Positions 3,309 through 32,080 of a stretch of DNA of 32,080 bases are shown here, in pieces. Each line of letters begins with the position of its first letter. The first letter of the stretch is position 1. The notes beneath the pieces were generated by a model. It did not search any database and was not told the origin of the DNA. It worked only from the letters and a program-made list of their open reading frames with translations. A program made the translations under genes and the position numbers. Source of the stretch: an uncultured Neglectibacter sp. (GTDB lineage: Bacteria; Bacillota; Clostridia; Oscillospirales; Acutalibacteraceae); NCBI GenBank assembly GCA_904391645.1, contig CAJFMJ010000006.1:1-32080 (forward strand), written 5' to 3'.

Positions 3309-4190
3309 TCACTTTCTGGGTGTGCCGGAAAAGGCGTCTTCCGGGTTGCCGGTCATCAGGATGAACAGTTTTTGCAGGTCCAGCCCGGACAATTCCAGCC
3401 CCTGGGGCAGGCCCGCCCGGTCTGGGGTGCCCAGGAGATAGGCGCTCTCCAGGCCGCCCAAACAGTCGGCGCCCAGCAGATGCTTGCCCTGGATGTACGT
3501 TTCCACCAGGCTGCGGGGCCCGCTGACCGTATACCCCTGGCGCAGCAGCTCTTCACAAGGGCCGTTTTTCAGCACCTGGCCCCGGTGGATGATGACCACG
3601 TCTTCCACCAGGGAGGCCACCTCTTCGATCAAGTGGGTGGAGATCACCACCGTGAAGGGGTGCTCCGTATACCGGGCCAGCAGGGTCTTGTAGAACAGCT
3701 CCCGGTGGTTGGCGTCCAGGCCCAGCACCGGTTCGTCCAACAGCACATAGGGTGTGTTTACCGACAGGGCCACGATCAGCTTGAAAATAGAGGTGTACCC
3801 GGTGGACAGCTTCGAAACCTTGGCGCCCACGTTCAGTTCAAAAGCGTCTGCCAGGTTCCAGGCAAAGTCCATGTCAAAGTCGGGGTAAAACTGCTTGGTC
3901 CACCGGAAAGCGTCCTTTACCTTCATGGAATCGGGATAGCAGCTGGGTTCGCTCATCAGGTACATCTTGGAAAGGGCACGGTCGTTGTTGTGCACCGGTT
4001 CCCCGTCCAGGGTGACGCTGCCCCCGTTGGGGAAGATCCGGTCGGTGAGGATGTTCAGCAAAGTGGATTTCCCTGCGCCGTTTCGCCCCAGCAGCCCGTA
4101 GATCTTGCCCTCCTCCAGGGTGAGGCTCACGTTTTGCAAAGCCTGCACCGGGCCGAAGTTTTTGCTTACCTGGTTGATGACGATGCTCAT
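3309..4190 (-). CDS. ABC transporter ATP-binding protein
   Basis: Walker A GRNGAGKST, LSTGYTSIF signature region, Walker B YVLLDEPVLGLD, H-loop STHLIEE. Confidence 0.92.
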   Translation of the reverse strand: MSIVINQVSKNFGPVQALQNVSLTLEEGKIYGLLGRNGAGKSTLLNILTDRIFPNGGSVTLDGEPVHNNDRALSKMYLMSEPSCYPDSMKVKDAFRWTKQFYPDFDMDFAWNLADAFELNVGAKVSKLSTGYTSIFKLIVALSVNTPYVLLDEPVLGLDANHRELFYKTLLARYTEHPFTVVISTHLIEEVASLVEDVVIIHRGQVLKNGPCEELLRQGYTVSGPRSLVETYIQGKHLLGADCLGGLESAYLLGTPDRAGLPQGLELSGLDLQKLFILMTGNPEDAFSGTPRK

Positions 4191-20404: not shown

Positions 20405-20438
20405 AAAAAAGCGCTTCCGAGGGCATCCTCGAAAGCGC
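20405..20438 (-). terminator. Leader terminator of amt
   Basis: Minus strand GCGCTTTCGAGG-atgc-CCTCGGAAGCGC followed by T6, about 20 nt after the inferred TSS. Confidence 0.85.
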
Positions 20439-20447
20439 CGTTGCTTT
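20432..20447 (-). promoter_or_regulatory. Hexaloop antiterminator-type hairpin AAAGC-AACGGC-GCTTT (amt leader)
   Basis: 5-bp stem, hexaloop AACGGC; 3' arm overlaps the 5' arm of the leader terminator. Confidence 0.75.
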
Positions 20448-20461
20448 TCTCAATGTGTTGC

Positions 20462-20490
20462 ATTATACGCCTTAAAGGGAAAAGTGTCAA
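20462..20490 (-). promoter_or_regulatory. amt promoter TTGACA-17-TATAAT
   Basis: Consensus -35 (20485-20490) and -10 (20462-20467) on the minus strand. Confidence 0.85.
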
Positions 20491-25879: not shown

Positions 25880-25938
25880 AAAAAGCGCCCGGCCCAGAGA
25901 GGGAGTTGAGTTCTCCTTTTCATGGGCCGGACGCCTTT
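25880..25938 (-). terminator. Leader terminator of gltB1 operon
   Basis: Minus strand AAAGGCGTCCGGCCCA ... TGGGCCGGGCGCTTTTT (16-bp stem with two wobbles, T5). Confidence 0.85.
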
Positions 25939-25943
25939 GTCCG
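25928..25943 (-). promoter_or_regulatory. Hexaloop antiterminator-type hairpin CGGAC-AAAGGC-GTCCG (gltB1 leader)
   Basis: 5-bp stem, hexaloop AAAGGC; loop and 3' arm form the 5' arm of the leader terminator. Confidence 0.8.
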
Positions 25944-25951
25944 TGAAGTGT

Positions 25952-25980
25952 AGTATAATACAATAAAAGTCGCTTGTCAA
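25952..25980 (-). promoter_or_regulatory. gltB1 operon promoter TTGACA-17-TATACT
   Basis: -35 at 25975-25980, -10 at 25952-25957 (minus strand). Confidence 0.85.
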
Positions 25981-26093: not shown

Positions 26094-26122
26094 TTGACAA
26101 ACGTGCCCGAGGTGCTTATAAT
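26094..26122 (+). promoter_or_regulatory. glnA promoter TTGACA-17-TATAAT
   Basis: -35 at 26094-26099, -10 at 26117-26122. Confidence 0.88.
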
Positions 26123-26131
26123 TGCCTCATA

Positions 26132-26147
26132 CCAGCAAAGGCGCTGG
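26132..26147 (+). promoter_or_regulatory. Hexaloop antiterminator-type hairpin CCAGC-AAAGGC-GCTGG (glnA leader)
   Basis: 5-bp stem, hexaloop AAAGGC identical to gltB1; overlaps the terminator 5' arm. Confidence 0.8.
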
Positions 26148-26176
26148 GGGTTCATGCCCCTGGCGCCTTTCTTTTT
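26137..26176 (+). terminator. Leader terminator of glnA
   Basis: AAAGGCGC(tg)GGGG gttcatg CCCC(tg)GCGCCTTT followed by CTTTTT. Confidence 0.85.
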
Positions 26177-28455: not shown

Positions 28456-28496
28456 AAAAGGGAGCTGCCTTCAGGCAGCTCCCTTTTTAGTTTTTT
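28456..28496. terminator. Bidirectional terminator between glnA and asnB
   Basis: AAAAAGGGAGCTGCC ttca GGCAGCTCCCTTTTTAGTTTTTT. Confidence 0.85.
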
Positions 28497-30078
28497 ATTT
28501 GCCGCTGTCCCCGTAGTTGGAGAGGACACGGGCTGAGGGGTCGTTTACATCGCAGCCCTCCCAGTCTTTGTTGGGCATCCAGAAATCTGCGATCATTTCC
28601 CCTTGGCCGGGGTAGTGCTTTTCAAAAAGATCCCGGTACAGGAGGGACTCTTTCGTAAAGGGCTGGGTATGGTGGTATTTTTTGCAGCCTTCGGCAAATT
28701 GTTCGTCCGTGTATTGGGCTTCGGCGTACTCTTTCAGGTAATCCACCATGGAGTGGCCCACCGCGTCTGAGAAGGCGGCCTTTTCCCGCCAAAGGATGCT
28801 CTCGGGCAAATAATTGCCCTCTGCAAACGCCCTGCGCAACAAGTACTTCCCTTTTCCGGTGGTGTTCATTTTCAAAGCAGGATCCAGGGACATGACGTAC
28901 TCTGCAAAATCTAAATCTCCAAAAGGCACCCGGGCCTCCAAGGAGTTGACGGAGATGCACCGGTCTGCCCGGAGCACATCGTACATATGCAGCTCCCGCA
29001 CACGCTTTTCGGACTCCTTTTGAAAGGCTTCCGGGCTGGGGGCAAAGTCTGTGTACTTATAGCCAAAGAGTTCGTCGGAGATCTCCCCTGTCAGCAGCAC
29101 CCGGATATCGGTGTGCTGGTGGATATACTTGCACACCAGGTACATACCCATGCTGGCCCGGATGGTGGTGATGTCGTAGGTTCCCAACAGTAGAATGACT
29201 TCCTCTAGGGAGTCGATGACCTCCTTGGGAGTCATGAATACCTCTGTGTGGTGGCTGCCGATAAAGTCCGCCACTTGCCGGGCGTATTTCAAGTCAATGG
29301 CGTCCCCCTCCATGCCGATGGCAAAGGTGCGGATGGGCGTTTTACTTTTCCGGGCGGCAATGGCACACACCAGAGAGGAGTCCAGCCCGCCCGACAGGAG
29401 GAATCCCACTTTGGCGTCGGACACCAGGCGTTTTTCCACCCCGGCCACCAGCTTTTGGTGGATCTTTTGACAGGCTGTGTCCTCGTCATCCCGGCAGACC
29501 GCCGTGACATGGGACAGATCTCGGAAGCGGTGGAATTGCCCGCCCTGATAATAGCAGCCAGGCGGGAAAGGCAAGATCTTCCCGCAAAGCCCTACCAGGT
29601 TTTTGGGTTCGCTGGCAAAGAGGATCGTCCCCTTCTCATCGTACCCATAGTATAGGGGCCGGATGCCGATGGGGTCCCGAGCGGCGACAAATTCTTCCCG
29701 TTCCCCATCGTAGAGGATCAAGGCGAACTCCGCATCCAGCATGGAGAACATGGCTGTGCTGTACTCCCGGTAGAGCGGCAGCAATACTTCGCAGTCGCTG
29801 CCGCTTTGAAAGGTGTAGCCTTTCCTCTCCAGCTCCATCCGGAGCTTCTCAAAGCCGTAGATCTCCCCGTTGCAGACCACAGCGCTTTTGCCCAACTGGA
29901 AGGGCTGCATCCCCGCCTCCGTCAGGCCCATGATGGCAAGCCTGTGGAAAGCCAGCACACCACCGCCCACCTCCAGTACCCGGCTCTCGTCCGGGCCTCG
30001 GGAGAGTGTGCGGTCAAACCCCTTTTGAAAGGCGGCCCAGTCCTGCACCGCCCCGCAGATACCCATGATGGAACACAT
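28495..30078 (-). CDS. asnB: Asparagine synthase B (glutamine-hydrolysing)
   Basis: MCSIMGICGAV with Cys2 nucleophile; RGPDES, AVVCNGEIYGFEKLR, GFLLSGGLDSSLVCAIAARK PP-loop, TGEISDELFGYKY. Start at 30078 behind GGAGGG; longer ORF overlaps the T-box. Confidence 0.96.
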   Translation of the reverse strand: MCSIMGICGAVQDWAAFQKGFDRTLSRGPDESRVLEVGGGVLAFHRLAIMGLTEAGMQPFQLGKSAVVCNGEIYGFEKLRMELERKGYTFQSGSDCEVLLPLYREYSTAMFSMLDAEFALILYDGEREEFVAARDPIGIRPLYYGYDEKGTILFASEPKNLVGLCGKILPFPPGCYYQGGQFHRFRDLSHVTAVCRDDEDTACQKIHQKLVAGVEKRLVSDAKVGFLLSGGLDSSLVCAIAARKSKTPIRTFAIGMEGDAIDLKYARQVADFIGSHHTEVFMTPKEVIDSLEEVILLLGTYDITTIRASMGMYLVCKYIHQHTDIRVLLTGEISDELFGYKYTDFAPSPEAFQKESEKRVRELHMYDVLRADRCISVNSLEARVPFGDLDFAEYVMSLDPALKMNTTGKGKYLLRRAFAEGNYLPESILWREKAAFSDAVGHSMVDYLKEYAEAQYTDEQFAEGCKKYHHTQPFTKESLLYRDLFEKHYPGQGEMIADFWMPNKDWEGCDVNDPSARVLSNYGDSGK

Positions 30079-30084
30079 AACGAT

Positions 30085-30330
30085 CCCTCCATACAAGATT
30101 TCAGCATCCCATAGGGCGAGTGCTGTGCTCGCGGTGCCACCTATGTTTGTGCTCATTCCGCCTCGCAAAAGGCTCTGCCCGGTAACGGGGGCGGGCCGGC
30201 GCGCCTACTGAGGAAATCCCGTTCAGCTTGCGGCTTGGCAAGTGTTCTTCCCTGGGGTCTGCTGCGCGGTTCCCACCGTCCCGTGCTCTCTGAAGGCAGG
30301 TGTCCCCAGGTACTTTTCTCACCTCAAACG
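30085..30330 (-). promoter_or_regulatory. T-box leader, predicted tRNA-Asn specific, upstream of asnB
   Basis: Minus strand: AGTA, AGAGAG and GGTGGGAACC Stem I elements; CCTGGGG/CCCCAGG helix; specifier loop GAAGAACA with AAC codon at 30244-30246; antiterminator ATAGGTGGCACCGCGAG...CTCGCCCTAT (30111-30144) with TGGC complementary to tRNA 3' GCCA (Asn discriminator G). Confidence 0.92.
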
Positions 30331-30334
30331 CCTG

Positions 30335-30376
30335 TAAAACAGAAAAGGCGCCTTTCCTCTTTGGGAAAGACGCCTT
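30335..30376 (-). terminator. Promoter-proximal leader terminator of asnB (upstream of the T-box)
   Basis: Minus strand AAGGCGTCTTTCC caaaga GGAAAGGCGCCTT (one wobble) followed by TTCTGTTTT. Confidence 0.82.
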
Positions 30377-30382
30377 CGTCTT
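30367..30382 (-). promoter_or_regulatory. Hexaloop antiterminator-type hairpin AAGAC-GAAGGC-GTCTT (asnB leader)
   Basis: 5-bp stem, hexaloop GAAGGC; overlaps terminator 5' arm. Confidence 0.75.
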
Positions 30383-30390
30383 ATGGGAGT

Positions 30391-30419
30391 ATTTTACAGG
30401 AAATAGGTGGTGTTGTCAA
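30391..30419 (-). promoter_or_regulatory. asnB promoter TTGACA-17-TAAAAT
   Basis: -35 at 30414-30419, -10 at 30391-30396 (minus strand). Confidence 0.82.
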
Positions 30420-30818
30420 GAGGGGAGAGGGTTTTGCCCCCATCCATTTTCAGGGAGCCGTAGCTATCTGGAGGATACAGCACCCAAAGGGATGGCTTCT
30501 TGGAGCATCTGGAGTGCCACGGCCGTTTGTAGCCAGGGGCGGGTTAACGCTGGCTGGGTGCGCCCAGTGCGGGAAAAGCCCTATTACTGGACGCCAGTCC
30601 AACTGGCGATTGCCGGACATGAAATCGGAAAATGCAAGGAAACAAGTCGTAAAAAACAATGGGAAATCCAGGATGGATTCACTATAATTTAGCCATAACA
30701 ATTCCACAATCGATCAAATGACTGTGATGGATGAACAAAATCATGGCCACAGAGGGGAGGTTAATCCCAGTTGTGGGAATCAAGAAGAGAATGGACATAC
30801 TTTTCAGGGGGGTTAAAA

Positions 30819-31484
30819 ATGGAAAAAACCATGCCCGCAAAAACAGGGAAATCAAAGCGGAAAATCCATTGGAAGCAGTATTTGCCGGTGTATTTATTGG
30901 CTCTTCCAGGGCTCATTTATCTGGTGATTAACAATTATATGCCCATGTTTGGCGTTGTTATCGCGTTTAAGGATTTAGATTTTCGCAAGGGGATTTTCGG
31001 AAGTGATTGGGCAGGGCTGAACAATTTCGCCTATTTGTTCCGCACTTCGGACGCTTGGCAAATCACAAGAAATACAGTATGCTATAATCTAGTTTTTATC
31101 GTTTTAAATGTGGTGTTAGGCATCTCTGTAGCAATTTTCCTCAATGAAATCCGGAACAAGCTGGCCACCCGGTTTTATCAAAGCGTGATGTTGGTCCCGT
31201 TCCTAATTAGCTGGGTGGTGGTGAGCTATCTTGTCTATGCATTTTTAGCGCCAGACACAGGGTTTATTAACAACTCGGTTTTAAAGGCGGCAGGGAATTC
31301 GCCGATTTCTTGGTATACGGAATCGAAATACTGGCCGTTTATCTTGGTGTTTGTAAACACCTGGAAATCCATCGGGTTCAACTGCGTGATCTATTATTCC
31401 AGCTTGATCAGCATCAATACCGACTACTATGAAGCTGCCACCATTGATGGCGCCAACAAGTGGCAACAGATCAAGAGCATTACA
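30819..31484 (+). pseudogene. ABC transporter permease, LplB/carbohydrate type, 3'-truncated
   Basis: QYLPVYLLALPGLIYLVINNYMPMFGVVIAFKDLDFRKGIFGSDWAGLNNFAYLF...SINTDYYEAATIDGANKWQQIKSIT; the EAA loop stops at the point where homology should continue, and the frame then runs into unrelated residues. Confidence 0.88.
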
Positions 31485-32080
31485 CCCAGTCCTTTTCTCC
31501 AAAGGAACCCATCACCGGCCCCCAGGCCCACCAGCTGGCGAAAGAATTCGCGGAACAGGCCTGGCCGGAGAGCCAGGTGCTGGTGGCCACTCATGTGGAC
31601 GCCCACCACATCCATTCCCATTTCCTGGTGAACGCGGTGTGCTATGAGAGCGGGAAAATGCTCCGTCAAGGGCCCCGCACCTTGGAGCATCTGCGCAACC
31701 TCTCCGACCAGCTCTGCATGAAGTACCACTATTCTGTGCTGCCCAGGGAGCGCCCTCAGCAAAATAAAGAGCCCTCCACCCGTGAGTACCGCTCCATGGA
31801 AAAGGGCCAGAGCTGGAAGCTCCACCTGATGGTGGCTATCGAGGACTGCATGGCTTCGGCCCGTTCCCGGCAGGACTTCATCCGCAGGATGAAACACCGT
31901 GGCTACGGCGTCCGGTGGGAGGATGGCAGGAAGTATATCACCTACACCACCCCCGGCGGGATGCGCTGCCGGGACAACAAACTCCATGAAATGAAATTCA
32001 GGAAGGAGAAAATGGAATATGAACTACGAATCCGAGCGGAGATCCTTAGAAGACTTGAAGCAGCAGGCCCGGCAGCAATC
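31478..32080 (+). pseudogene. Relaxase/mobilization nuclease fragment, 5'-truncated, open to window end
   Basis: My translation of the +2 frame from 31478: HYTQSFSPKEPITGPQAHQLAKEFAEQAWPESQVLVATHVDAHHIHSHFLVNAVCYESGKMLRQGPRTLEHLRNLSDQLCMKYHYSVLPRERPQ..., with the HIHSH metal-binding motif of MobA/VirD2-type relaxases. No start codon upstream at the junction. Confidence 0.85.

Follow-up and report, generated by a model that had tools for sequence, protein, structure and literature searches.

The asnB leader and its setting

The window, that is, the whole 32,080-nt stretch of DNA analysed here, comes from an uncultured Neglectibacter sp. that is closely related to, among others, Candidatus Acutalibacter stercorigallinarum and has an assembly 1.83 Mb long and 82% complete. 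On its minus strand lies asnB, with a reading frame that is intact by its Pfam domains and translation, preceded by a leader in which a strong promoter, a hexaloop hairpin with a terminator, and a T-box follow one another in series (Table 1), an arrangement that the first-pass annotation had proposed and that the promoter, terminator and RF00230 scans confirmed. The only promoter-like site that the consensus scan found on the minus strand of 29900-30850 is the one at 30419-30391, whose TTGACA and TA...T are shared by the elements aligned from relatives, and transcription is expected to start near 30384. The hexaloop hairpin begins ~8 nt past the -10 box, and its loop and 3' arm double as the 5' strand of the intrinsic terminator; hairpin and terminator are thus mutually exclusive. 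The segment 30384-30335 folds at -25 kcal/mol (z -5.6), and none of 200 shuffled sequences folded equally well. Of the hexaloop hairpin/terminator originally placed at 30335-30382, the terminator stands, while the relevant hexaloop turned out to be the alternative 5' hairpin, the first loop base of which is G and not A. A canonical P1-P2 hairpin pair was rejected for the asnB leader, since there is no room for it and none was found; between the -35 box and the start codon no hexaloop with A as its first and G as its fourth base (A1/G4) was found on a stem of at least 3 bp. The apical loop of the terminator, CAAAGA, also has six bases and was rejected as an ANTAR loop because it does not fit A1/G4. 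We also rejected assignment of the terminator to an upstream gene, as the neighbour there is a plus-strand permease gene and nothing found on the minus strand needs a terminator. An ABC permease frame at ~31476-32080 appears broken off, running into mobilisation-protein-like sequence as at an insertion or an assembly join.

The T-box matches RF00230 over its full length with 70.7 bits (E 3.7e-15 for the stretch). Since this is below the Rfam gathering score of 93, a default Rfam scan gives no match at all and a permissive scan was needed; orthologous or related T-box leaders elsewhere score 55-91 bits. The specifier remains AAC after covariance alignment, and AAC recurs at this place in the aligned asnB leaders of relatives. 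The tRNA-Asn of the source genome has the anticodon GTT and ends in ...G-CCA, with G as the discriminator, and its GCCA-3' end pairs with the TGGC of the T-box core, so that specifier and core both fit one tRNA, tRNA-Asn (GTT). The earlier claim of a complete T-box with these two motifs therefore holds, except that this T-box is without a terminator of its own. Its first position, 30337, lies inside or beside the U-tract of the first terminator, which leaves no room for a promoter of its own, and a separate T-box promoter was rejected because the minus-strand scan of 29900-30850 found none. Either a T-box transcript starting past the first terminator or a specifier other than AAC would have refuted the original reading, and by promoter scan and alignment neither applies.

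Table 1. Positions of the features in the window.
Feature	Position	Strand	Basis or remark
asnB promoter, TTGACA-17-TAAAAT	30391..30419	minus	consensus scan, 11/12 positions
Single ANTAR-type hexaloop hairpin, AAGAC[GAAGGC]GTCTT (alternative antiterminator fold)	30367..30382	minus	aligned element set
Intrinsic terminator, 14-bp stem, loop CAAAGA, U-rich tail	30334..30377 (stem 30377-30344)	minus	terminator scan, folding
T-box leader, Stem I to antiterminator/antisequestor	30109..30337	minus	RF00230 model positions 1-219, full length
Specifier codon AAC (Asn), context GAAG-AAC-A	30244..30246	minus	RF00230 alignment and relatives
T-box core AGGTGGCACCGCG	30130..30142	minus	TGGC = 30139-30136, complementary to GCCA 3' end of tRNA-Asn
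T-box helix 3' half, conserved ATGCTGA, Shine-Dalgarno GGAGGG	30085..30120	minus	without terminator
asnB, asparagine synthetase (GATase and Asn_synthase)	28495..30078	minus	Pfam, translation; start M-C-S-I-M-G
Promoter-hexaloop element before glnN (glutamine synthetase III), CCAGC[AAAGGC]GCTGG	26094..26156	plus	scan and model search
Promoter-hexaloop element before glutamate synthase operon, CGGAC[AAAGGC]GTCCG	25919..25980	minus	scan and model search
Promoter-hexaloop element before ammonium transporter-PII fusion gene, AAAGC[AACGGC]GCTTT	20423..20490	minus	scan and model search

Hexaloop elements and the ANTAR protein

The first-pass annotation had suggested looking for the same tandem in related genomes, and the direct series of hexaloop, T-box and asnB is present in five species, namely the window, L016 (G025), L018 (G012), L004 (G011) and L072 (uncultured Ruminococcus); the loops of the series in sister species are AAAGGC or AAGGGC. 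At 14 further loci asnB is directly preceded by the T-box, and the hexaloop lies far upstream on the same strand; at those of the 14 whose gene order was drawn, glnN, usually together with amt and PII, lies in between. Joint use of hexaloop and T-box on asnB is therefore recurrent, within one leader or along one operon. Five other asnB leaders (L009, L020, L025, L026, L095) have the hexaloop only, and from these and the loci with a distant hexaloop we conclude that the two modules are separable. We found no report of an ANTAR element and a T-box in series in the open-access literature. In the window, the -10 region and the beginning of the T-box are connected by an inverted repeat, CCTGTAAAA...TTTTACAGG (30391-30400 and ~30331-30340), which is also present in L016 and absent from L018.

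A hexaloop scan of 80 asnB loci of other genomes together with the window yielded 99 promoter-fused hexaloops. The scan filtered for A1, G4, arm pairing of at least 4 bases and overlap with a terminator, A1/G4 being demanded of all except the asnB copy of the window. A1 is found in 98 of the 99 elements, G4 in all 99 and a C-G closing pair in 98, the A1 and G4 counts being partly by construction because both were filters. The arms had to pair, but no given arm sequence was demanded, and they vary in sequence yet pair: 95% of cells are paired, a value reached by 0 of 500 shuffles, and slid controls gave 35-55%. Because pairing of at least 4 bases was itself filtered, the independent evidence is a leave-genus-out search with a covariance model trained on other genera only, without Acutalibacter sequences. 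Its top eight matches in the source genome precede the amt-PII fusion gene, carA, the glnA-ANTAR operon, the gltB operon, glnN, a second glnN (this and carA identified from translated starts) and asnB, with one orphan; seven of the eight thus precede nitrogen or glutamine genes, and the model-found elements overlap an intrinsic terminator. The asnB element is the eighth and weakest match, and since its E of 0.019 compares with 0.066 for the next one, it would be borderline without the relatives. A1/G4 was seen in the other seven genome elements, for five of them, including three outside the window, in the model-search sequences and for the rest in the scan. A second hexaloop lies within ~90 nt downstream of 30 of 93 elements, possibly as stacked attenuators.

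One ANTAR gene was detected above the Pfam cut-off in the source assembly. It lies directly behind a glutamine synthetase gene (glnA operon) and is followed by a glutamine amidotransferase gene (purF-like), and the operon is itself led by a hexaloop element; of 30 ANTAR loci, that of the source genome included, 29 have glutamine synthetase as the neighbour. These ties, to nitrogen genes genome-wide and to an ANTAR protein encoded beside glnA, bear out the initial reading of the hexaloop as a nitrogen element. Over its receiver and ANTAR regions the protein matches the structures of EutV (PDB 6wsh, E 5e-9) and Rv1626. The phospho-acceptor Asp of the receiver is replaced: of 30 aligned sequences, 24 have Asn there and one has Asp. 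From these sequences we infer that the signal is unlikely to be phosphorylation. Element and ANTAR gene co-occur across 60 genomes (counts 29/2/11/18 at E<=1e-4, Fisher p 5e-6) and across the near-complete ones (24/2/11/11, p 0.0024), neither test being corrected for kinship and the E<=1e-4 threshold having been chosen afterwards. Two genomes, G032 and G052, have strong elements (best E 9e-10 and 5e-5), but relaxing the cut-off to E 10 brought up no ANTAR match in either. In C. saccharobutylicum, NitR induces the GS/GOGAT genes under nitrogen limitation (PMC6316151).

A proposed two-stage gate on asnB and its alternatives

The first-pass annotation had asnB gated by a nitrogen signal AND by uncharged tRNA-Asn. 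Because no terminator follows the T-box, we restate this as a gate that probably acts on transcription and then on translation. RNA polymerase would start near 30384 and meet the terminator within ~50 nt. If nitrogen is short, the NitR-like ANTAR protein encoded beside glnA would bind the hexaloop hairpin, which uses the 5' strand of the terminator; the terminator could then not form and transcription would continue. The binding, the antitermination and the direction of this signal are inferred, whereas the leader anatomy, its conservation, the regulon and the one ANTAR protein are observed. The T-box would in turn read tRNA-Asn through AAC and TGGC, and uncharged tRNA-Asn, again an inferred direction, would stabilise the AUAGG...CCUAU helix and most likely free the asnB start region for ribosomes, as in a translational T-box. 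Full asnB expression would then need nitrogen limitation AND uncharged tRNA-Asn. In the absence of expression data, we consider it likely that the leader is such a two-stage gate, with the hexaloop/terminator acting on transcription and the T-box probably on translation.

The most serious competing explanation is that the nitrogen gate has decayed in this one copy, in which case the terminator would give constant read-through and the T-box alone would control asnB. The loop of the asnB copy is GAAGGC, with A1 changed to G and G4 kept, and it is the sole element of the 99 without A1; folding predicts a G1-C6 pair that closes the loop to four bases, and the asnB element has the lowest model score of the eight in the genome. 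An A1U change lowers induction of EutV targets (PMC3369931), and because of this cost and the shortening of the loop that G1-C6 pairing would cause, the asnB copy may be weak or inactive in the source genome, though the sister copies look sound. On the other hand, this copy keeps an intact stem with its C-G closing pair, as well as G4, the terminator and the promoter; sister species retain the series with their A1 loops, and G4 is the only base-specific contact described in the EutV structure (PMC8934654). We therefore regard decay of the nitrogen gate as unlikely, though it cannot be set aside.

The two-stage gate also depends on the level at which the T-box acts. Most annotated T-boxes control transcription (PMC7583486), and one related asnB leader, L011, has by eye a terminator-like hairpin and a T-run past its T-box, so that a non-canonical or Rho-dependent terminator downstream could be envisaged here as well. 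In the window, however, the terminator scan found no terminator-like site between the T-box core and the asnB start codon, and the longest T-run there is 2 bases (1-5 across 16 leaders). We accordingly think transcriptional control by this T-box improbable, more so than decay of the hexaloop, and that it probably gates translation. When the antiterminator helix is absent, folding predicts pairing between the 3' half of the T-box and codons 1-6 of asnB. At codon 3 (Ser3) the wobble base tends to pair with a base just past the T-box, with a paired change in 21 of 35 leaders (permutation p 0.004, kinship uncorrected); this signal is weak, and we take it as suggestive only, having rejected it as a demonstration that a sequestrator lies within the reading frame. 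Masking of the Shine-Dalgarno sequence in the off state rests on such modelled folds and is not firmly shown, and the window segment from the T-box core to the start codon, folded alone, has unremarkable stability.

That the palindrome after the -10 box instead serves a repressor or activator as a DNA operator is hardly credible: it is an inverted repeat at the classical operator position, but its arms covary around six spacer bases (AAAGGC etc.) that stay fixed, the reverse of what an operator would do and the pattern on which we rejected this reading. Overlap with an intrinsic terminator is seen in the collected elements (where this was a filter) as well as in the model-found ones, and the palindrome tracks an RNA-binding ANTAR protein.

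Relation to known systems

The hexaloop elements resemble the ANTAR antiterminator RNAs (EutV/eut, NasR/nasF, AmiR/amiE) and clostridial NitR in the fixed closing pair, the overlap with a terminator and, as far as counts from a filtered scan can show, the A1/G4 rule, and further in their association with nitrogen genes and with a EutV-related ANTAR protein encoded beside glutamine synthetase. They differ from described targets, in which a short linker connects two hairpins (PMC3369931, PMC8934654, PMC8164766), in having a single hexaloop so close to the promoter that P1 would not fit, and the protein differs from known ANTAR systems in its replaced phospho-Asp. EutV genetics indicated that two hexaloops are needed for antitermination (PMC3369931), while in the paper on the EutV structure a single hexaloop became the new definition of the minimal binding site (PMC8934654); the element described here makes it testable whether ANTAR antitermination works with a single one. 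The T-box resembles Asn-specific T-box riboswitches (RF00230) of the translational class in its full-length Stem I to antiterminator, AAC and TGGC. Unlike typical members it scores below the gathering score and lacks a downstream terminator though it comes from Bacillota, translational T-boxes being described as mostly actinobacterial (PMC7583486). The closest parallel to the series is the ppGpp riboswitch with a Leu T-box, likewise two serial RNA switches forming an AND gate (PMC9481103, Table 2); here, in contrast, nitrogen status would enter first, through a terminator bound by a protein, and each gate probably works at a level of its own.

More broadly, and only tentatively, as we hold it somewhat less probable than not, single-hexaloop promoter-fused terminators may be a widespread clostridial class of ANTAR targets, served by a pseudo-receiver NitR that would be signalled by its operon partner glutamine synthetase and not by phosphorylation, to which asnB would add a translational T-box and thereby a two-level AND gate. 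The gate on asnB, if it works as proposed, would be a natural case of one gene under two inputs, general nitrogen status and the particular amino acid that the gene product makes, with control divided between transcription and translation, and the element would offer a simple handle on the nitrogen regulons of many uncultured gut Clostridia. An orphan promoter-hexaloop-terminator (L160, ~1460-1562; G000:C5, element 3360-3420, minus strand) lies between two genes without a nitrogen gene behind it and is followed by a second strong hairpin; by analogy with EutX/Rli55, a role as a short RNA that acts as a decoy for the ANTAR protein is conceivable.
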